Notes under the pieces: generated by a model | The model's input: only the letters and a program-made list of their open reading frames with translations | Told to the model about the DNA's origin: nothing | The model's database searches: none | Shown: in pieces, positions 16,683 through 27,564 of the stretch | How the letters are laid out: each line of letters starts with the position of its first letter | Position numbering within the stretch: position 1 is the stretch's first letter | From: Haloterrigena gelatinilytica | GTDB taxonomy: Archaea; Halobacteriota; Halobacteria; Halobacteriales; Natrialbaceae | Reading direction: 5' to 3' | Length of the DNA: 64,000 nt | Assembly: GCF_013342145.1 (NCBI RefSeq) | Contig: NZ_JABUQZ010000001.1 | Location: forward strand, 1,302,001 to 1,366,000 | Position numbers and translations under genes: made by a program

Positions 16683-17513
16683 TCACTGCCGCCGGTAGAT
16701 CCGCGACGCCCTATCGGCCGGCTCGAACGCGTTCTCGATGTTCCGCGTCAGCGATTCCGACTTGCCGATAACCAGATAGCCGCCCGGACGGATCGCGTCG
16801 GCGAGCTTCTCGAGCACGGTTCGGTGGTGGCGGTCGTCGACGTAGATGAAGAAGTTCCGACAGAGCACCAGATCGTAGGTCGATCCGATCGAATCGGTGA
16901 TCAGATCGAACCGGTCGAAGTCGACCATCCGCTTGATCGAGGAGCCCACTCGGTAGGCCTCCCCGTCGTCCCGGTCGCCCGGACAGTCGAGGTAGGAGCG
17001 GTACGCGTCGAGATACGACAACTCCGTCTCGAGGTTGGACGTTCGTTGCTGTTCGTAGACGCCGTTTCGCGCCCGTTCGAGCGCGTTTTCGTCGATGTCG
17101 CTGGCGCGAATGGAGAGGCGGTGGGACGAAATCCCGGCACTTTCCCGAGCGAGCATCGCCAGCGAGTACGGCTCGCGACCGTCGGAGCAGGGAACGCTCC
17201 ACGCCGAAAGCGGTCGGTCCCGCCGTTCCTGGAGCGTCTCGAGGACGCCTCGAAGCTCGTCCCAGACGGAGGTGTCGCGGAAGAACGACGTGACGTTGAC
17301 GCTCAGCGTATCGAGCAACGCCGTCCGCTCGGCGCCGTCGTCGGCCTCGAGCAACGAGAGGTAGCTGCTGTAGGCGTCTCGCTCGAGACCGTTTCTCGAC
17401 AGCCGGGATCGGATCCGGCGGCGGAGATACCGATCGGCGTAGTAACTCGTCGCGAATCCGTACCGGGATTCGATGTGCGAAAGGAGGCGGTCGAAATCGT
17501 CGGTGTGTGTCAT
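16683..17513 (-). CDS. cheR: chemotaxis protein methyltransferase CheR
   Basis: A 276-residue protein. The N-terminal helical domain begins FDRLLSHIESRYGFATSYY. The SAM-dependent methyltransferase domain contains FFRDTSVWDEL, WSVPCSDGREPYSLAML and, near the end, LVLCRNFFIYV and GYLVIGKSESL. CheR methylates glutamates on chemoreceptors during adaptation, working against CheB. The usual SAM loop reads W-x-x-x-C-S-x-G-x-EPYS with a Pro after the Val. It lies 49 bp downstream of cheW (17563-17994) on the same strand. Confidence 0.93.
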   Translation of the reverse strand: MTHTDDFDRLLSHIESRYGFATSYYADRYLRRRIRSRLSRNGLERDAYSSYLSLLEADDGAERTALLDTLSVNVTSFFRDTSVWDELRGVLETLQERRDRPLSAWSVPCSDGREPYSLAMLARESAGISSHRLSIRASDIDENALERARNGVYEQQRTSNLETELSYLDAYRSYLDCPGDRDDGEAYRVGSSIKRMVDFDRFDLITDSIGSTYDLVLCRNFFIYVDDRHHRTVLEKLADAIRPGGYLVIGKSESLTRNIENAFEPADRASRIYRRQ

Positions 17514-17562: not shown

Positions 17563-17994
17563 TCAGATCCTGATCGCGGTCGGATCGACCCAGACGACGA
17601 ACTCGTCTTCTCGTCGGATGACGCCGGCGATCCCGTCCCCGTCGACCGCCGTGTTGACGACGTCGGACGCCAGCGCCTGCACCTGGTGGACTTCGTCGGC
17701 GAACCAGCCGATCCGTTCGGGCGCCCCCCGTTTGCGTTTGAAGACGATGATCCGATCCCCGAACCCGTCGTCCTCGAGCCCGAGAAGCGTCTTGAGGTTC
17801 ACGATCCTGGTGGTCTCGCCGCGGAGGTCCATGACGCCCTCGACGTGGGCCGGCGTGTTCGGGATCGCGGTCAGTTCGTCGGAGTTGACGATCTCGGCGA
17901 TGTAGCCGATCTCGACGCAGTAGCGGTTCTCACCGAGATCGAACTCGAGGACGTGCGTTCCGTCGGCGTCGGACTGGAGCGACTTCGTCGCCAT
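17563..17994 (-). CDS. cheW: CheW adaptor protein
   Basis: A 143-residue single CheW domain from ATG 17994 (MATKSLQSDADG). The core is VLEFDLGENRYCVEIGYIAEIV, then IPNTPAHVEGVMDLRGETTRIVNL, the latter containing the strongly conserved G-x-x-x-LRG-E turn. CheW couples CheA to the chemoreceptors in membrane arrays. The frame is open upstream to 18102 but that extension is arginine-rich, so the start inside was chosen. An AT-rich box at 18139-18149 would give a leader of about 100 nt. Confidence 0.92.
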   Translation of the reverse strand: MATKSLQSDADGTHVLEFDLGENRYCVEIGYIAEIVNSDELTAIPNTPAHVEGVMDLRGETTRIVNLKTLLGLEDDGFGDRIIVFKRKRGAPERIGWFADEVHQVQALASDVVNTAVDGDGIAGVIRREDEFVVWVDPTAIRI

Positions 17995-18300: not shown

Positions 18301-19452
18301 TTACTTGATCCGCTCGATGATGCTGTCGATATCCAGCCACGAGATCAGGCTCGTGTGATCGCCGTTGGGTTTCTTGATGACCGAGTCGACGAACTCGTGG
18401 CCGTTGTCGTCGGCGCCTCGAGACTCGTCGATCTGGTCCTCGTGATACGTCGCGGCCTGACGGACGTCGGTCACCCTGATGCCGAGTTTCTGCTTGTCGT
18501 CGCCGCGGTTGAGCACGACGATGTACTGCTCGTCCGAGGGTTCGCTCCGCTCGACGTTCAACAGGGCCGTCGGATCGACGACCGCCGTGATCTCGCCGCG
18601 GAGGTCCGTGACGCCGTCGATCGCTTCCGGACCGCGCGGGAACCGGGTGATCTCTTTCATCTCCACGATCGCGCTGATGCGATCGATCGCGATCGCGTAC
18701 CGGTCGTCGTTGAGCGAGAACTCGAGGACCTGAACGGTGCTCTCGTCGCTGCGGGCCGAGTGGTTCAACGCGGTGTCGTCGGCGAACATCCCGTCTTCGG
18801 CGTCGACCGCACCCCGGAGGACCGACCCGTCCCCGGACGCCGTGTCGGTCTCCAGCGCCGTCGCGTCCACGATCGGTTCCATTCCGTCGGCCGCGTCGAA
18901 CTGCTGGACGCGACCGGCCGCAGCTCCGTCGCCCGCGGCTGCCGATTCCGCGGCCGGAGTGAGAGAGTGGTTCGCGCGGGTCGCCGGATCGGCGCGGGCG
19001 GCCGGCCCGCCGGCGTACGCTTCTGGTTCGGCGCCCCGTCCCGGGGCGGACGCCGCGCGAGTACCCGTCCGTGCGGCCGGTTCGGCGGCCCGGTCTCGAG
19101 GCTGCGTCGCCTGTCCGGTCGACTCGGTCGCTCGCTCGGCCGAATCGCCTGAGTGCTCGGGGACGTCGCGGGAAGCCGGTTCGGAGACGTCACCGGAACC
19201 GGACTCGGCGGCGGCCGTTTCGACGCCGTCGTCGGACCGATCGGCGCTGGCGGCGGCGTCGGTCGCGGTCGGTTCGGGGTCGCTCGAGTCGGGGTCGTTC
19301 GTCCCGGAATCGTCCGTCTCGGGCGCGGCGTCCGCGTCGGCGGCGTCGTCCGCCGCCGATTCGTCTTCGTCGCCGTTGTTCGCGTTCGCAGTCGCCTGCG
19401 ATCGGGATCGGTTCCGGATCCGTTTGATTCGTTCTGCTCGTTCGTCAGTCAT
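18301..19452 (-). CDS. CheW-domain protein with a long disordered N-terminal arm
   Basis: A 383-residue protein. Only the last 145 residues or so form a CheW domain (VQVLEFSLNDDRYAIAIDRIS, then GPEAIDGVTDLRGEITAVVD). The first 235 are low-complexity Asp/Ala/Ser/Thr/Pro/Arg sequence with a short basic start (ERIKRIRNRSRS), and are almost certainly disordered. The start codon overlaps the parA stop by 4 nt (ATGA). This architecture resembles bacterial ParP, a CheW-like protein that links a ParA-type ATPase (ParC) to chemosensory arrays. The functional analogy is inference. It could also simply be a second CheW with a tether. Confidence 0.85.
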   Translation of the reverse strand: MTDERAERIKRIRNRSRSQATANANNGDEDESAADDAADADAAPETDDSGTNDPDSSDPEPTATDAAASADRSDDGVETAAAESGSGDVSEPASRDVPEHSGDSAERATESTGQATQPRDRAAEPAARTGTRAASAPGRGAEPEAYAGGPAARADPATRANHSLTPAAESAAAGDGAAAGRVQQFDAADGMEPIVDATALETDTASGDGSVLRGAVDAEDGMFADDTALNHSARSDESTVQVLEFSLNDDRYAIAIDRISAIVEMKEITRFPRGPEAIDGVTDLRGEITAVVDPTALLNVERSEPSDEQYIVVLNRGDDKQKLGIRVTDVRQAATYHEDQIDESRGADDNGHEFVDSVIKKPNGDHTSLISWLDIDSIIERIK

Positions 19453-20237
19453 ACTGTCATCTCCGTGGTGGAAAACTCCTCGTCGAGCGACGCCGCGACC
19501 GCTCGGAACCGCTCGCACATGTCGATCTCCTCGTCGGCCGCGAAGATCGACCGGCCGCTCGAGAACGCCCGCTGGAGGGCGACGCGTTTCCGGACCTCGA
19601 ACGTGGGGACGTCGGGGACGGCCTCCTCGAACCACTCGAGCATCTCGGTCGCCTCGCCGGTGTTTTCGATCCGGTTGACGACCAGCGATTTGGCGTCGAT
19701 CTGCACGTCGTGTTCCATCTCGAACGCCCGCGTGTAGTCGAACAGCAACTCGAGGGAGCGCTTGCTCGTCGATTCGGCCAGCGCCGGAATGACGAGGTTG
19801 GGCGCGGCGTACAGCGCGTTATCGGTGAGCATCCCGAGGTGGGGCGGGCAGTCGACGATCACGTAGTCGTAGCCGTAATCCGCGGCGTCGAGCAGCTTTG
19901 CGAGTCGCCGTTCGCCGTCGTCCAGTTGCAACAGCGACGCTTCGGCGGCCGTCATGTCGATGTTGCTCGGGAGCACGTCCATCTCGTCGTGGTGCCAGAC
20001 GAGCTCGTCGAACGAGACCGACGAGTCGTCGACGAGCGCGTCGAACAACGTCGGCGGAGCCGCGTCGTACGCGTCGGTGAGGCCGAGCCCCTCGGTACCG
20101 TTGCCTTGGGGATCGAGATCGACGAAGAGGACGTTCCTGTTTCGCTGACTGAGCGCGCCGGCGAGAGTGATCGCCACTGTCGTCTTTCCGACGCCCCCTT
20201 TCTGATTGGTTACACAGAGCCGCGCGAGTCGCGCCAT
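19449..20237 (-). CDS. parA: ParA/MinD-family ATPase of the chemotaxis locus
   Basis: A 262-residue protein from ATG 20237 (MARLARLCVTNQKGG). The deviant Walker A is KGGVGKTT at residues 13-20. The switch I motif is VDLDPQGN and Walker B is VIVDCPP. No partner ParB-type gene is present; instead the stop overlaps the start of the CheW-domain gene at 18301-19452. ParA proteins position cargo on membranes or nucleoids. Given its neighbour the likely cargo is the chemosensory array. A TATA-like box near 20259-20270 would make the transcript nearly leaderless. Confidence 0.9.
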   Translation of the reverse strand: MARLARLCVTNQKGGVGKTTVAITLAGALSQRNRNVLFVDLDPQGNGTEGLGLTDAYDAAPPTLFDALVDDSSVSFDELVWHHDEMDVLPSNIDMTAAEASLLQLDDGERRLAKLLDAADYGYDYVIVDCPPHLGMLTDNALYAAPNLVIPALAESTSKRSLELLFDYTRAFEMEHDVQIDAKSLVVNRIENTGEATEMLEWFEEAVPDVPTFEVRKRVALQRAFSSGRSIFAADEEIDMCERFRAVAASLDEEFSTTEMTV

Positions 20238-20439: not shown

Positions 20440-20799
20440 ATGACAGTGAAGGTACTGATCGTCGATAACTCCGAAGTGATGCGGGAAGTGTTGGAAGAAG
20501 CGATCAAGGAGGAGTTTTCCGTCGTCGCGGAGGCCGAAAACGGAGCGGAAGCGATCGAAGCGGTCGAGACCTACGACGTCGACGTCATCATGATGGACAT
20601 GGTGATGCCGGGCATCGACGGCGTCGAGGCGACGGCCACGATCAAGGAGAAAGCTCCCGATATCAAGGTCATCTTCTGTACGAGCGTGACCCAACAGGAG
20701 CGGATGAAGCCGGCGATCGAGGCCGGAGCCGACGGCTACATCATGAAGCCGTTCGAGAACAGCACGATCCGAGAAGCGATTCACGATGTCGTCTCCTGA
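20440..20799 (+). CDS. cheY: chemotaxis response regulator CheY
   Basis: A 119-residue single receiver domain. The phosphoacceptor is D53 in DVIMMDMVMPG. The conserved Thr lies in FCTSVT and the Lys in MKPF. The N-terminal acidic pair reads D9-N10 (LIVDNS), where nearly all CheY proteins have two acidic residues. CheY carries the phosphoryl signal from CheA to the motor, in archaea through adaptor proteins. It is the first gene of the plus-strand unit and overlaps cheB by one base (TGATG). Confidence 0.93.
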   Translation: MTVKVLIVDNSEVMREVLEEAIKEEFSVVAEAENGAEAIEAVETYDVDVIMMDMVMPGIDGVEATATIKEKAPDIKVIFCTSVTQQERMKPAIEAGADGYIMKPFENSTIREAIHDVVS

Positions 20800-21845
20800 T
20801 GGTTCGCGCCGTTATCGCGGACGATTCCGGCGTCATGCGCGAGATTCTCTCCGAGATTCTCACGGCGGCCGGAATCGAGGTCGTCGAGGCGGTCGAGGAC
20901 GGAACGAGCGCCGTCCGCGCGATCTTAGAGCGGGATCCCGACGTCGCGACGATCGACATCAGCATGCCGGACAAGAACGGCCTGGAAGTGATCGAAGAGG
21001 TCATGGCCGAGCGACCGACGCCGATGCTGGTGATCAGCGCTCGAGCGAACGACGGGGCGTCGGAGACGTTCGAGGCCCTCGACCGGGGAGCCGTCGACTT
21101 CATCGCGAAGCCGAGCGGGCAGCTCTCGGTCGACATCTGGTCCCAGCGTGACGAGATCGTCGAGAAGGTTCGGGCCGCGGCCGCGGTCGATCCGACGACG
21201 CTTACCCAGGACGCCGGCGCGGAGCCGGTTCAGTCGACGGTTCCGGCCGATCGGGTCCCGGACGGATCGACGGTCGTCATCGGGTCGTCGACCGGCGGTC
21301 CGCAGGTCCTCGAACGGGTGCTCGCAGAACTGCCGCGAGAAGCGAAGTTACGGGTTCTCATCGTACAACACATGACAGACCACTACACCGGACGTTTTGC
21401 AATGCGTCTGAACGAGCGAACAGCATACGAGTGTCGAGAAGCATCGGACGGCGACACGGTCGGGGCGGGCGACGCGGTCGTCGCAAAGGGCGGTCGCCAC
21501 CTCGAGGTGACGGCCGATCGCGACGGCGAGCTCGCGGTCGCCCACGACGACGGGCCCAAGATCCACAACGTCAAACCCGCGATCGACGTCACGATGCAGT
21601 CGGCCGCCGAGGCGGTCTCCGGCCCCCTCGTGGGGGCGGTGTTCACCGGCATGGGCGCCGACGGCGCGGCCGGACTCTCCGCGATCAAGGCCGCCGGCGG
21701 GAAGACCATCGCGCAGGACGAGGAGACCTCCAGAGTCTTCGGCATGCCCGGCCGCGCGGTCGAAACCGGCGACGTCGACATGGTGTTGCCGGAGGAACGG
21801 CTCGCCGAAGGAATCGTTAACGCGCTCGACGGGTGGTCCGGGTGA
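20799..21845 (+). CDS. cheB: chemotaxis methylesterase/response regulator CheB
   Basis: A 348-residue protein with an N-terminal receiver (D8, D9, phosphoacceptor D53 in TIDISMPDKNG). A linker leads to a C-terminal methylesterase with the catalytic loop IGSSTGGPQVL, IVQHM and GMGADGAAGL. It removes methyl groups from, and deamidates, receptors when phosphorylated by CheA. Its start shares one base with the cheY stop, and its stop overlaps the cheA GTG start by 3 nt, so the three genes are likely translationally coupled. Confidence 0.95.
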   Translation: MVRAVIADDSGVMREILSEILTAAGIEVVEAVEDGTSAVRAILERDPDVATIDISMPDKNGLEVIEEVMAERPTPMLVISARANDGASETFEALDRGAVDFIAKPSGQLSVDIWSQRDEIVEKVRAAAAVDPTTLTQDAGAEPVQSTVPADRVPDGSTVVIGSSTGGPQVLERVLAELPREAKLRVLIVQHMTDHYTGRFAMRLNERTAYECREASDGDTVGAGDAVVAKGGRHLEVTADRDGELAVAHDDGPKIHNVKPAIDVTMQSAAEAVSGPLVGAVFTGMGADGAAGLSAIKAAGGKTIAQDEETSRVFGMPGRAVETGDVDMVLPEERLAEGIVNALDGWSG

Positions 21846-23833
21846 GCGACGCCATCACCACCTTCGTCCACGAGAGCGAGGAAGACATCCGGAAGCTGAA
21901 CAACGCCCTGCTCGACCTCGAGAACGATCCCGACGGCAACGAGGCGATCGAGACCGTCTTCCGGGTCGCCCACAACCTCAAGGGGAACTTCGGCATCATG
22001 GGCTTCGCCACGGCCAGCGAGCTCTCACACGCCGTCGAAGACCTCCTCGATCAGATCCGGGACGGCCGGCTCGAGGTGACCTCCGAGCGGATGGATCTCG
22101 TCTTCGAAGCGGTCGACCAGATCGAGCTGATGGTCGACGAGATCGCCGAGAACGGCGAGCCGACGACCGATCCCGCGGAGACGATCGAATCGATTCGCGC
22201 TTCGATCGACGGCGAGAGCGCTCGGGCGGCGACCGGACAGTCCGCTGAAAACGCCGCCAACGCGGGCGGCGACGACCGATCTCGCTACCGCGCGACCGTC
22301 GACGTGGGCGAGACCGACGCCAAACGCGTCGACGCGATGTTCGTCCTCGACGCGACGGGCGACGCCGACGCGTTCGAGCTGGTCCGCACCGTTCCCGATC
22401 GGGACGCGATCGAGGACGGCGAGTTCGACGGCACGTTCGACGTCGAACTGGCGGTCGACGACGACGCAGCCGGCGACGAGATCGCGTCGTTCTACGAGGA
22501 GAGTCGCTACGTCGAATCGGTGTCCGTCGATTCGGTCGCCGACGCGACCGAGACGGAGACGGCCGACGAGACGCCCGCGCAGACGGACGATAGCGGAGTC
22601 GAGACCGCTCCCGACGCGTCAAGCGAGGACGGCGACGACGACTCCGACGAATCGAACTCCGAGGGGGCATCGATCGCCTCGCGACGCAACAAGGAAGTCG
22701 AATCGATCCGCGTCGACGTCGAACAGGTCGACCGCCTCTACAACCAGGTCGAGGAGATGGTCACGAGTCGGATCAAGCTCCGCAAGATCATCAAGGGGAG
22801 CGGACTCGTCTCCGCCGAGGAGGAACTCGAGGAACACGGTAAGATCACCTCGAGCCTGCAGGATACGGTCCTCGAGATCCGCCTCGTTCCCCTAGAGAAG
22901 ATCGTCGGCAACTTCCCGCGGGTCGTCCGCGACCTCGCGCGCGATCAGGGCAAGGAGATCGACTTCGAGATGGAGGGCGTCGACAACGAGATGGACCGGT
23001 CGATCCTCAACGAACTGAGCGACCCGCTGATGCACATCATTCGGAACGCGGTCGACCACGGGATCGAGCCGCCGGCGGTCCGCGAGGAGAAGGGCAAGCC
23101 CCGCGAGGGGACGATCCGCCTCACCGGTGAGCGCGAACGCGACCGCGTGTCGATCACCGTCGAGGACGACGGCGCCGGCCTCGACGTCGAGCGGATCAAG
23201 GAGAAGGCCGTCGAGAAGGGAATCATGACCCAGGAGGAGATCGACGTCCTCGACGAGTCCGAAGTCTACGACCTGATCTTCCACCCGGGGTTCTCGACGC
23301 GCGACGAGGTGACCGAAGTCAGCGGTCGCGGCGTCGGGATGGACGTCGTCAACGAGGTCGTTCGCGGCGTCGACGGGACGATCAACGTCGAGAGCGAGCC
23401 CGACGAGGGCACGAGCGTCACGCTCACGCTCCCCGTTAGCGTGGCGATCGTCCGAGTGCTCTTCGTGACGATCGGGGACGAAACGTACGGCATTCCGATC
23501 AAGAACATCGACGAGATCTCCGAACTCGAGGACCTCGCCATCGAGACGATCGAGGGCCAGGAGATCATCACGCACGACGACCGCGTGTACCCCCTCATCG
23601 CGCTCGACGACACCCTCGACGTCGGCGACGCCGAGCGCTCCGACGACGACATGGTGATCCGGATCAAGACGGACGTCCGTCAGGTCTGCATCCGCTGTTC
23701 GGACGTCGTCGGACAGGAGGAGGTCGTCATCAAACCGTTCGAGGGGATCCTGAGCGGCGCGCCCGGCATCAGCGGGGCGTCCGTCCTCGGCGAGGGCGAG
23801 GTCGTGATGATCCTCGACGTGGAGACACTGTAA
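21842..23833 (+). CDS. cheA: chemotaxis histidine kinase CheA
   Basis: A 663-residue kinase starting at GTG 21842, which overlaps the cheB stop. P1 Hpt domain: H44 in VAHNLKGNFGIMGF is the phosphorylated histidine. A P2-like domain (about 140-230) and an acidic linker follow, then P3 dimerisation, and P4 ATPase with HIIRNAVDHGIEPP (N box), VEDDGAGLD (G1) and SGRGVGMDVV (G2). P5 is the CheW-like regulatory domain at the C-terminus. An in-frame GTG at 21833 is the only nearby alternative start. Confidence 0.95.
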   Translation: MSDAITTFVHESEEDIRKLNNALLDLENDPDGNEAIETVFRVAHNLKGNFGIMGFATASELSHAVEDLLDQIRDGRLEVTSERMDLVFEAVDQIELMVDEIAENGEPTTDPAETIESIRASIDGESARAATGQSAENAANAGGDDRSRYRATVDVGETDAKRVDAMFVLDATGDADAFELVRTVPDRDAIEDGEFDGTFDVELAVDDDAAGDEIASFYEESRYVESVSVDSVADATETETADETPAQTDDSGVETAPDASSEDGDDDSDESNSEGASIASRRNKEVESIRVDVEQVDRLYNQVEEMVTSRIKLRKIIKGSGLVSAEEELEEHGKITSSLQDTVLEIRLVPLEKIVGNFPRVVRDLARDQGKEIDFEMEGVDNEMDRSILNELSDPLMHIIRNAVDHGIEPPAVREEKGKPREGTIRLTGERERDRVSITVEDDGAGLDVERIKEKAVEKGIMTQEEIDVLDESEVYDLIFHPGFSTRDEVTEVSGRGVGMDVVNEVVRGVDGTINVESEPDEGTSVTLTLPVSVAIVRVLFVTIGDETYGIPIKNIDEISELEDLAIETIEGQEIITHDDRVYPLIALDDTLDVGDAERSDDDMVIRIKTDVRQVCIRCSDVVGQEEVVIKPFEGILSGAPGISGASVLGEGEVVMILDVETL

Positions 23834-23835
23834 CC

Positions 23836-24945
23836 ATGAGTATGAAACTCGACTTACGAAAGCTAGAAGAATTCGACCAGATGGCCATCGACGGCGCCGA
23901 CGGGGCGAGCGACCGCCTCTCCGGACTCACCGGGGTCGACACCTCGGTCGACTGCAGTCGCTTACACGTCGTCGCCGCGACGGCGGTGATCGACGAGTTC
24001 GAGCGCGACGACGTGCTCGCCATCTCCATCTCCCTCGAGGGCTATCTCGAGGGGGAGGTCGTCACCGTCCTCGACAGCGCCAGCGCCCGCGAACTCGCCG
24101 AGGCGTTCATGCCGATGCTTCCCTCGGACGACGGCTACACGTCGAAACACGAGTCGGCCGTCGAGGAGATCTGTAACGTGATGGTCAGCGGCTACGTCGA
24201 CGGCTGGGCGAACGTCCAGGGCGAGTCGATCGTCATGTCGCCGCCGTCGGTCGTCTCGAGCGCGTTCGACGCCGAGGAGGGCGTTCGATCCGAACTCCTC
24301 GAGGAGACCGAGCACGTGCTCTCCCAGCGCAGTTCGATCGTGACGCCCGACGACGAGATCGAGTTCCAGATGTTCCTCTTCCTCGACGAGGCGACGTCCC
24401 GAACCCAGTTCGGCGCGGACCCCGACGCCAGCGCGATCGATTACGAACTCCTCGAGGTGCTGACGGCGCTGGACGGGATGGAACCGCGGTCGATCGGCGA
24501 TCACCTCCTCGAGACGACCGAGTTCGACGCCGACGTCGCGATCGACACGCTGGATATCGTTCCGGCCGAGCGACTGTCGGAGACGGTTTCCGACGAGGAG
24601 AGCCTCGGCGCGGTGGTCGAACTCGTCGATCCGCCGATCGGCTCCGCGATCACCTTCTTCGACGACCGCGACGGATCGACCGACGAGGTCGGCGCCGCGG
24701 TGACGACGAGCCTCGTCGACGAGATCGCCGACCGGCTCGAGGTAGCGGTTCGGGCCGGCGAGCCGACGATCGTCGACGACATGCGGTCGTCGATCGTCAA
24801 CGACGTGGTCGCGAACCTCGGGCCGGGCGAACGGTTCGTCCTCAGCCTCGAGGGGCTGCTCGAATCGACGGCGGGCGATCTCAGCTGCGACGTCTACCTG
24901 CTGCTCAGCCCGAAGGAAATCGCGGACTACTGGGCCCAGCGATGA
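23836..24945 (+). CDS. cheC: CheC-type CheY-P phosphatase
   Basis: A 369-residue protein, almost twice the usual CheC length. The first half has the CheC active-site pattern S-x3-E-x2-N followed about 22 residues later by P (ESAVEEICN ... SPP). The second half has a similar fold pattern but only a degenerate motif (VDDMRSSIVND), so it is probably catalytically weak or regulatory. CheC dephosphorylates CheY-P and binds CheD. It starts 2 bp after cheA; ATG 23842 is an alternative start. Confidence 0.85.
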   Translation: MSMKLDLRKLEEFDQMAIDGADGASDRLSGLTGVDTSVDCSRLHVVAATAVIDEFERDDVLAISISLEGYLEGEVVTVLDSASARELAEAFMPMLPSDDGYTSKHESAVEEICNVMVSGYVDGWANVQGESIVMSPPSVVSSAFDAEEGVRSELLEETEHVLSQRSSIVTPDDEIEFQMFLFLDEATSRTQFGADPDASAIDYELLEVLTALDGMEPRSIGDHLLETTEFDADVAIDTLDIVPAERLSETVSDEESLGAVVELVDPPIGSAITFFDDRDGSTDEVGAAVTTSLVDEIADRLEVAVRAGEPTIVDDMRSSIVNDVVANLGPGERFVLSLEGLLESTAGDLSCDVYLLLSPKEIADYWAQR

Positions 24946-25727
24946 GCGACGACGCGAACGACGCGGGCGGCGAGGACGGCGGGATCACAATCTACGGCGC
25001 CGACGACGGGGCCGACGACGAGGGCGACGACACCGACGACCTCGGGATCAGCGTCTACACGCCGGCGACCGACGGCGACGAGGACGACGGCGATGACGAC
25101 GACGAGGTCGAGGTCCCGGTCTACGGCGAGTCGGCGGACGACTCGAGCGCGGACGGGGACGGCGACGCCGATGGCGACGACGGCGACGGTGATGACGACG
25201 ACTTCGAAATTCCGGTCTTCGGCGAGTCCGACGACCCGGAGCCGACGGCCGACCCCATCTCTGTCGGCGTCGCGGAGTACGCGATCACCGACGAGGGGCG
25301 ACCGCTGCGGACGAGCGGGCTCGGCTCCTGTCTCGGTCTCGTCGTCCACGACGACGTTCGGGGCGTCAGCGGCCTCTTACACTTCATGCTCCCGCGGGCC
25401 GCGGAATCGAACGGGCAGAACCACAGCGACGCGAAGTTCGCCGACACGGGGATCGCCGCGATGCTCTCGGCGTTCGTCGCGACCGGCGGCGACCTCTCGT
25501 CGGCCTCGGCCAAGCTCGCCGGCGGCGCGACGATGGTCGACTTCGATCGGGTCGACACCCCGATCGGCAGCCGAAACGTTGAGGCGGCCCGGCGCGAACT
25601 GTCCGACAACGGCGTCGAGATCGTCGCCGAGGATACCGGCGGCGACGCGGGACGATCGCTGCGGTACGATCCGCAGACCGACGAACTCCGCGTGACCGGC
25701 GCGAACGGCACCGAGCGAACACTGTGA
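24942..25727 (+). CDS. cheD: CheD receptor deamidase with repetitive acidic N-terminal arm
   Basis: A 261-residue protein. Residues about 105-250 are CheD, with the catalytic triad visible as T124, C130 and H147 (RTSGLGSC ... LLHFMLP), at the same spacing as in Thermotoga CheD. The first 100 residues are extremely acidic and carry four short beta-like motifs: ITIYG (15-19), ISVYT (36-40), VPVYGES (58-64) and IPVFGES (90-96). CheD deamidates receptor glutamines and binds CheC. The start overlaps the cheC stop by 4 nt. Confidence 0.92.
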   Translation: MSDDANDAGGEDGGITIYGADDGADDEGDDTDDLGISVYTPATDGDEDDGDDDDEVEVPVYGESADDSSADGDGDADGDDGDGDDDDFEIPVFGESDDPEPTADPISVGVAEYAITDEGRPLRTSGLGSCLGLVVHDDVRGVSGLLHFMLPRAAESNGQNHSDAKFADTGIAAMLSAFVATGGDLSSASAKLAGGATMVDFDRVDTPIGSRNVEAARRELSDNGVEIVAEDTGGDAGRSLRYDPQTDELRVTGANGTERTL

Positions 25728-25863: not shown

Positions 25864-27564
25864 ATGGCCTGGCAAATCGATCCCGGCGACTTCGACGAAA
25901 CGAGTCTCTCGAGCGACCTCGAGGAGCAGATGGATCGCCATCCGCACCTCGAGGAACACGTCACCGCGTTCCACGACCGAGCGAACGTCTACCCGCGGTA
26001 CATCGACGAACCGGAGGACCACCACAACACGACGGTCGACCACCCCAACTACTGCTGGCAGATCGACGATCTCGTCTTCGCCCACGTGTACGGATCGACC
26101 GATCAGGACCCGATCTACTACGCGATCGAACCCTCCCTGAGTTACGACGAGGTCACGCTGTTCCGAGAGGTGAAAAACCGGGTGCTAAACGAGAACGTGA
26201 CCGATCCCGGCGACGTGGACCGCGAGGACATCGACGAGGTCCTCGAGCCGGTGGTTTCGGTGACGACGGAGGCGCCGCCGGAGGAGCGGTCGGCCGTCGA
26301 CGGCCTCCTCGGTCGGCTCCGCGGCGCGCTCTCCCGGCGGCCGATCTCGGTCGACCAGCGGACCTACGAGCGACTGCGGTATCAGTTCCGGCGGGACGTG
26401 CTCGGTCTGGGGCCGCTCGAGCCGGTCTTGCTCGACGACAGTAACGAGGACATCCACGTGCTCGCCCACGACAACCTCCACGTCTACAACGACGTCTTCG
26501 GCCTGGTTCGGACGGACATCGACTTCGGATCGGAGTACGAGTACGAGCACTTCCTGCGGTCGATGGGCGAACGGATCGGCGACCCGCTCTCCGACGCCGA
26601 CCCGATCACGGACGGAACCCTCCCCGACGGCTCCCGATTCAACGTCGTGTTCAGCAACGACGTCTCGGTGAAGGGGCCGTCGATGACGATCCGCCAGCAG
26701 GACGAAATCCCGCTGACGATGACGGCGATCACCCGCGGCGGAACCTTCTCGCCGACGGCCGCGGCGTACCTCTGGCTGGCGATGGAAAACGAGACCAGCG
26801 CCATCGTCGCCGGGGAGACCGCGTCGGGGAAGACGACGACGCTCAACGCGTTGACGTCGTTCATCCCGGACGACGCGAAGATTTTCACGGCCGAGGACAC
26901 CGCCGAGGTCATCCCGCCCCACGACACCTGGCAACAGCTCCTCACGCGGGAGGGAACCAGCAACGAGGTCGACCTCTTCGACCTCGTCGCCGCCGCGCTC
27001 CGCTCGCGGCCCGACTGCATCATCATCGGCGAGGCCCGCGGCGAGGAGGTCCGGATGGCCTTCCAGGCGATCCAGACGGGCCACCCCGTGATGATGACCT
27101 TCCACGCCGGCAACATCAAGAGCTTAGTCCAGCGGCTGAAGGGCAATCCGATCAACGTCCCCTACTCCCATCTGGACAACCTCGACCTCGTCATCTTTCA
27201 GAACTTCATCCAGAGCGACGACTACCGGCGCTGTACGAGCATTTACGAAATCGACAAGTTCTCGAGCGAACTCGGCGGACTGGTCACGAACAAGGTCTTC
27301 GAGTGGGATCCCGTCGACGACCAACTGGAGTTTACCGGCATGAACAACTCGGTGCTCTTAGAGGACAAGATCGCGACGCTGCACGGCTACGAGGACACGC
27401 GAGACATCTACGACGACCTCGAGTATCGGCGCCGGATCATCGAGAAGATGGTCTACAAGAACGTCGTCGACTACGAGGAGTTCAACCGGATCATCTCCGA
27501 GTTTCAACAGGACGGCCACGCCAGTCTCCCCTTCCACGTCGAGAAACCGGAATCGATCGCGTGA
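25864..27564 (+). CDS. arlI: archaellum/type IV pilus-type assembly ATPase (ArlI-like)
   Basis: A 566-residue secretion ATPase. The N-terminal domain (about 1-150) includes HVYG and YYAIEPSL, a pattern seen in haloarchaeal ArlI/FlaI. The RecA-like core has the P-loop GETASGKT (317-324), an Asp box FTAEDTAEV, Walker B IIIGEARGEE and the His box MTFHAGN. ArlI powers archaellum assembly and rotation together with the membrane platform ArlJ. No arlJ or other arl gene follows here; the next gene is a flavoprotein. It lies 136 bp after cheD. A PilB-like pilus ATPase is the alternative. Confidence 0.78.
   Translation: MAWQIDPGDFDETSLSSDLEEQMDRHPHLEEHVTAFHDRANVYPRYIDEPEDHHNTTVDHPNYCWQIDDLVFAHVYGSTDQDPIYYAIEPSLSYDEVTLFREVKNRVLNENVTDPGDVDREDIDEVLEPVVSVTTEAPPEERSAVDGLLGRLRGALSRRPISVDQRTYERLRYQFRRDVLGLGPLEPVLLDDSNEDIHVLAHDNLHVYNDVFGLVRTDIDFGSEYEYEHFLRSMGERIGDPLSDADPITDGTLPDGSRFNVVFSNDVSVKGPSMTIRQQDEIPLTMTAITRGGTFSPTAAAYLWLAMENETSAIVAGETASGKTTTLNALTSFIPDDAKIFTAEDTAEVIPPHDTWQQLLTREGTSNEVDLFDLVAAALRSRPDCIIIGEARGEEVRMAFQAIQTGHPVMMTFHAGNIKSLVQRLKGNPINVPYSHLDNLDLVIFQNFIQSDDYRRCTSIYEIDKFSSELGGLVTNKVFEWDPVDDQLEFTGMNNSVLLEDKIATLHGYEDTRDIYDDLEYRRRIIEKMVYKNVVDYEEFNRIISEFQQDGHASLPFHVEKPESIA

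Follow-up and report, generated by a model that had tools for sequence, protein, structure and literature searches.

Several ATPases of the ParA/MinD superfamily place or distribute chemosensory arrays. In Vibrio, the ParA-like ATPase ParC works with ParP, a partner made of an N-terminal ATPase-binding part, a Pro-rich linker, and a CheW-like AIF domain (PMC5706961), and the system is anchored by HubP. In Rhodobacter sphaeroides, the ParA-like ATPase PpfA distributes chemosensory clusters, and the role of adaptor has been proposed for one of the chemoreceptors, TlpT, which has a basic N-terminal extension (PMC7993993). A ParA/MinD ATPase of Halothiobacillus neapolitanus, also named ParC (Hn0722), is encoded in a che operon; its deletion disperses the chemotaxis clusters, and the N-terminal peptide of its CheW partner, ACX95572, was docked onto it in silico (PMC10241942). 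In haloarchaea, the arrays of Haloferax volcanii are placed by MinD4 and MinD2 (PMC11588486). More generally, ATPases of the ParA/MinD kind are known to be activated by basic peptides at the N-terminus of their partners (PMC7993993, PMC10241942), as in ParB-type proteins, MinE, ParG, and PomX, and similar N-terminal extensions exist in TlpT and McdB (PMC7993993).

Here, we analyse a parA–CheW gene pair found in a 64,000-nucleotide stretch of the Haloterrigena gelatinilytica genome (hereafter, the window). In our reading, which we hold to be probable, the two proteins, an ATPase of the ParA type and the adaptor that belongs to it, both derived from plasmid partition, spread or place the chemosensory arrays of a single chemotaxis system. 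We found no description of the haloarchaeal ParA–CheW pair in the literature searched, mostly open-access journal papers, and the main text of the Halobacterium taxis interactome paper (PMC3579733) does not mention ParA. As judged from sequence comparison, what is new here is a peptide common to these pairs and to plasmid-type pairs, together with two independent conversions of the latter.

The gene pair and its neighbourhood

The parA gene (19449..20237, minus strand) encodes a 262-residue ATPase with strong ParA/Soj-type matches in Pfam (AAA_31, E=2e-42) and in the PDB. Its stop codon overlaps, by ATGA (19449..19452, minus strand), the start of the partner gene (18301..19452, minus strand), whose 383-residue product consists of a short N-terminal peptide, a disordered spacer, and a C-terminal CheW domain. 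This CheW domain, a candidate array-docking element, covers residues 241-381 (18310..18732, minus strand) and matches PF01584 with E=8.4e-25 (87.4 bits for a gathering score of 23.5). CheW is also the sole NCBIfam match of the C-terminal domain; the CheW tree, where an affinity to CheA-P5 like that of AIF domains might show, contains a single CheA-labelled row.

The surroundings are those of a chemotaxis cluster. On the minus strand lie cheR (16683..17513) and a second, ordinary short cheW (17563..17994, with an assumed start at MATKSL; PF01584, E=1.4e-22), and on the plus strand cheY (20440..20799), cheB (20799..21845), cheA (21833..23833; 666 residues, one of two CheA genes in this genome), a cheC/cheX-like phosphatase gene (23836..24945), and cheD (24942..25727), whose product has an acidic N-terminal extension. 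The first-pass annotation had described a parA overlapping a CheW-domain gene inside a chemotaxis island, with an intact deviant Walker A and no ParB, and all of this was borne out: KGGVGKTT occupies ParA residues 13-20 (20178..20201, minus strand), and the scanned neighbours of parA, i.e., the che genes and the CheW partner, include no ParB match. The pair sits on the 4.29-Mb main contig. A T2SSE gene (type II/IV secretion ATPase; 25864-27564, plus strand), either ArlI or a pilus ATPase, follows cheD. The same genome has a second che region (G000:C1:2470286-2477092), with a CheA frame of 1305 residues and two CheW matches, and without this ParA.

Conservation of the pairing and association with chemotaxis genes

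We searched for this ParA across Halobacteria, fetched a first set of 30 loci, and then added 80 named loci. The orthologues fall into two groups, one in Natrialbaceae (63-67% identity) and one in Haloarculaceae with a few Haloferacaceae (about 50-57% identity), which has an insertion near residue 103. A CheW gene lies directly downstream of parA in all 30 loci fetched first. In total, 91 loci are CheW-paired, and the −3 overlap is identical in 84 of them; they represent about 74 distinct ParA sequences, which is the safer count since some genomes occur twice, in two collections. The pairing is thus far above chance. The first-pass annotation had made its reading depend on a genome survey of parA and long-armed CheW co-occurrence, and this survey finds the pairing conserved in two main families. 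The insertion-type ParA is present in 60 of 391 Halobacteria (E below 1e-150), one or two of which may have the alternative MYLP partner described below, and in a phylum-wide search of 295 genomes, the ParA relatives among the matches listed were all within the same order. In Haloarcula rara (L104:8840-9969), the CheW partner is split over two frames after the arm, by a frameshift or a sequencing error.

The pair is associated with chemotaxis genes. In 125 Natrialbaceae genomes, this ParA was counted as present at E below 1e-130, a cutoff that a clear gap separates from the matches at 1e-106; at least two CheA genes are found in 32/32 genomes that have it vs. 3/93 that do not (Fisher p=1e-26). 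Given the relatedness of these genomes and the usual position of the pair inside the second che cluster, the association comes near to that of a single linked block and should not be read as 32 independent events. Of 145 Halobacteria sampled, all 31 that bear the pair have CheA vs. 90 of the 114 others (p=0.002).

Haloarculaceae carry the pair away from the che cluster, with neither cheA nor cheB detected within the 15 kb fetched. There, the pair is divergent from an Arch_fla_DE gene (PF04659, archaellum motor family) in 43 of the 62 loci with enough flank (e.g., L105:6167-7801 and L146:6003-7157), and 37 of the 62 Haloarculaceae-type loci encode salactin (PF25229, E about 1e-186) within 3 kb of the pair. 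Neither gene was found beside the Natrialbaceae pairs or the MYLP pairs. The ArlD/E-family and salactin genes are also neighbours without ParA–CheW nearby (G006:C1:605451-606778 and G124:C1:2256814-2258208), so that this two-gene unit may predate the arrival of the pair.

A conserved N-terminal peptide on a variable spacer

The long arm of the adaptor had been described in the first-pass annotation as a 235-residue disordered region and proposed to bind or activate the ATPase. The AlphaFold model does predict disorder, with most of residues 22-237 at pLDDT 34-53, but the arm is not uniform: a helix is predicted at residues 3-21 ahead of the roughly 215-residue variable spacer, and the CheW fold spans residues 238-382. 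The modest confidence of the whole model (pTM 0.40) is expected because the chain is mostly disordered. The helix corresponds to the N-terminal peptide MTDERAERIKRIRNRSRSQA (19393..19452, minus strand), the candidate ParA-binding or ParA-activating element. In an alignment of 17 partners (A2), M1, R5, A6, R8, and R13 are invariant, and no column is invariant between residue 13 and the CheW domain. The peptide core, R-A-x-R-[IL], is present in 91/91 CheW partners, while a slightly looser pattern was found in 1.9% of 1,666 other ORFs and in 1.5% of shuffled N-termini. In the Haloferacaceae group, the core is present three times in two partners and twice in another, whose sequence is truncated.

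The invariant Arg and Ala residues of the peptide are encoded by 4-6 synonymous codons each. The constraint hence acts on the protein, and a DNA-level cause of the conserved gene start, such as the operon junction, is ruled out. The spacer (residues 22-237; 18742..19389, minus strand) behaves differently. It is dominated by Ala, Asp, Glu, Thr, Gly, and Ser, Pro makes up about 5-6% of the arm, and the window partner has a spacer net charge of −36 with 8% hydrophobic residues. Its length is hypervariable, the peptide plus arm ranging from 95 to 365 residues among homologues. Since only residues 1-20 are conserved, the whole arm is ruled out as a single functional element. From these comparisons, the key element appears to be the first ~20 residues, a predicted basic helix, and the long remainder a variable spacer; the earlier interpretation is partly supported, right in outline and wrong on which part of the arm matters.

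A ParA of the plasmid type

MinD4 and MinD2 of Hfx. volcanii resemble the window ParA in being ParA/MinD ATPases of haloarchaea, and they affect the placement of arrays and archaella (PMC11588486). However, they are MinD-type and no dedicated CheW partner is described for them in that paper, whereas the window ParA scores far below the MinD cutoff (TIGR01969, minD_arch: 52.1 bits vs. 201.75), which excludes a MinD4-like reading. The deviant Walker A (KGGxGKTT), the Walker A' (D-x-D-P-Q-G-N), and the Walker B are all found in 91/91 CheW-paired ParAs. On sequence criteria, we thus classify the window ParA as plasmid-type and not MinD4-type. Residues R216, K217, R218, Q222, and R223 are invariant in the ParA alignment (A1), within a basic stretch, RKRVALQRAF in the window (residues 216-225; 19563..19592, minus strand), that is a candidate non-specific DNA-binding surface; the full motif of this type is found in 80 of the 91 sequences. 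By a crude count, aimed at a C-terminal basic membrane helix, 81/91 have fewer than three Lys or Arg in their last 15 residues. The basic stretch suggests DNA binding by ParA and, together with the lack of an obvious basic C-terminal helix, it favours the nucleoid over the membrane as the binding surface.

These features bear on the main rival of a nucleoid-based ratchet, namely that ParA holds the arrays at the pole through a landmark, as ParC/ParP does, and that the peptide only recruits the adaptor. The adaptor does follow a ParP-like logic, with an N-terminal ATPase-interaction element, a long linker, and a CheW-like C-terminal domain (PMC5706961). Moreover, Hfx. volcanii arrays are polar in early log phase (PMC11588486), and the Haloarculaceae pair neighbours genes for an ArlD/E-family protein and for salactin, which in Hbt. 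salinarum forms filaments growing out from the poles. We nevertheless consider polar tethering rather unlikely, since the ParA is plasmid-type with non-chemotaxis relatives that are often plasmid-borne, its basic stretch points to DNA, no HubP-like landmark was identified, and the linker is rich in Ala, Asp, and Glu and not in Pro. The comparison with Vibrio is one of domain layout, an acidic spacer and a plasmid-type ParA standing in place of the Pro-rich linker and the HubP anchor. Hence, of the ParC/ParP-type module proposed in the first-pass annotation, the ParA-like gene beside a C-terminal CheW-domain gene holds, while the linker and the closest kin, which are plasmid-type pairs, depart from it. 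In PpfA/TlpT, compared here at the level of the ParA superfamily and of the basic N-terminal element, the proposed adaptor is a bacterial chemoreceptor and not a CheW protein. The best reading, by analogy, is that the pair would work like PpfA/TlpT or ParC/ParP, and likewise like Halothiobacillus ParC, a likeness that need not mean membership of any of these families. Halothiobacillus ParC is also bacterial, and a peptide common to plasmid partition partners was not found in the available part of PMC10241942.

Plasmid-type relatives and exchange of the cargo domain

The nearest non-chemotaxis ParAs precede genes for proteins of 110-200 residues, mostly again with a −3 overlap. At their N-terminus, these short partners have the same peptide (MSDDSRADRLRRRR...), but their C-terminal domain, of ~70 residues, is another one, named here MYLP after its consensus, YMYLP...EKNRHFYPLVV (L016, L019, L092, L133, and others). 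The strict peptide core is present in 24 of 32 MYLP partners, and the eight that lack it mostly accompany distant ParAs. Many MYLP-paired ParAs are plasmid-borne, including that of PHS4 in Hbt. salinarum (OE_RS13295/OE_RS13300). This PHS4 pair has a related ParA (roughly 50-60% identity), the same ATGA overlap, and a partner, annotated as hypothetical, which begins with MSGDEDNGQSRSERLRQRRQSR and, like the window partner, combines an N-terminal peptide (RSERLRQRR) with a low-complexity spacer. It differs in its C-terminal domain, which is not CheW but a helical domain of ~70 residues without Pfam or clear PDB match. None of the three MYLP domains scanned against Pfam has a match there, and all 13 members scanned match PHROG 26668, a family without annotated function. 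Foldseek returned nothing at E<1, and VIA-align returned proteasome helices only, with Z<=5.1; a ribbon-helix-helix or other DNA-binding domain is therefore unsupported by these structure searches. On pNRC100 (L184:2498-3262), gvpC-gvpN-gvpO is followed directly by a related ParA, with stops in the frame read and nothing annotated as a partner behind it; this ParA may be partnerless or may serve gas vesicles.

We define here the haloarchaeal plasmid ParA/adaptor family by its ParA clade and by a partner starting with R-A-x-R-[ILM]. The window pair has both, and the window and 90 further loci carry a CheW domain instead of the C-terminal MYLP domain. In the ParA tree, the CheW-paired sequences occupy two clades, each with MYLP-paired relatives, and constraining them to one clade is rejected (AU p=1.7e-7). 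A single clade is likewise rejected for the partner CheW domains (AU p=0.004), albeit from an alignment of only 142 columns and a tree with some long branches. Rejection of a single origin of CheW pairing implies at least two swaps of the cargo domain. The distances between peptides track those between ParAs (Mantel r=0.78, p=0.001), and in Halococcus thailandensis (L133), a MYLP partner has a Haloarculaceae-type peptide, DRMGRADRIRNTREGRR, with a ParA that groups with the Haloarculaceae che-ParAs. The peptide therefore stays with the ATPase, and the exchange concerned the C-terminal domain. The trees support a scenario in which haloarchaeal plasmid partition-type pairs gave rise to the module, the C-terminal domain of the adaptor being replaced by CheW at least twice while the peptide and the ParA were kept. 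Thus, the idea of a dedicated partition pair for arrays stands in that a conserved ParA and CheW-adaptor module with a basic N-terminal element exists, and has to be amended in that its nearest kin are plasmid partition-type pairs.

This ancestry could also mean that the ParA still segregates DNA, in ordinary plasmid-type partition or as a relic, and that the fusion of its partner to CheW is incidental or decaying, as the nearest relatives outside chemotaxis are plasmid-type ParAs with MYLP partners. We regard this as very improbable: neither gene is damaged and ~74 distinct loci conserve them, the window copy sits on the main contig, CheW was swapped in at least twice and kept thereafter, and the association with a second CheA is perfect in Natrialbaceae. 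Another reading takes the long-armed CheW for a regulatory adaptor, similar to CheV or CheW2, that competes with ordinary CheW, the ParA setting the number or activity of arrays and not their position. An ordinary CheW is encoded in the same cluster of the window, CheW2 of Hbt. salinarum, a proposed tuner of signalling, binds receptors but shows little binding to CheA (PMC3579733), and loss of Halothiobacillus ParC also lowers cluster assembly (PMC10241942). This reading is improbable to us, as it leaves unexplained both the peptide common to plasmid partition-type partners and its co-divergence with ParA.

A model for array distribution and its implications

In the array-distribution reading, which we prefer, the CheW domain of the adaptor would dock into the receptor array, as CheW domains insert into arrays. 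The first ~20 residues, a basic helical peptide carried on a long, flexible, and acidic tether, would bind the ParA dimer in its ATP-bound state and, as the analogous ParB, MinE, ParG, and PomX suggest, probably stimulate its ATPase activity. The ParA would most likely act on the nucleoid, through a diffusion ratchet of the ParABS or PpfA kind, rather than on the membrane as MinD does, given its plasmid type, its conserved basic stretch, and its lack of an obvious basic C-terminal membrane helix. In the simplest model, an array coated with ParA-stimulating peptides would be the cargo that moves on, or spreads over, the nucleoid, as for PpfA/TlpT. A broader proposal, which we advance tentatively and do not favour as a whole, is that the portable ParA-docking peptide of ~20 residues constitutes a platform for cargo exchange, that a machine for plasmid partition was converted in this way at least twice into one for chemosensory arrays, and that in Haloarculaceae the pair forms an island with an ArlD/E-family archaellum protein and the polar actin salactin, which together organise the motility pole.

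The work on PomX led to the proposal that activators of ParA/MinD ATPases are modular, a short basic N-terminal peptide being placed on any interaction domain (PMC7993993). The pair described here looks like a natural and repeated archaeal case of this modularity, in which related ATPases and peptides are combined with two C-terminal domains, and it makes the modularity directly testable through swaps of peptides and cargo domains. It also predicts that haloarchaeal genera other than Haloferax have a mechanism of array placement in addition to MinD4, and it suggests a likely function for two genes whose names so far come from their ParA and CheW domains alone.
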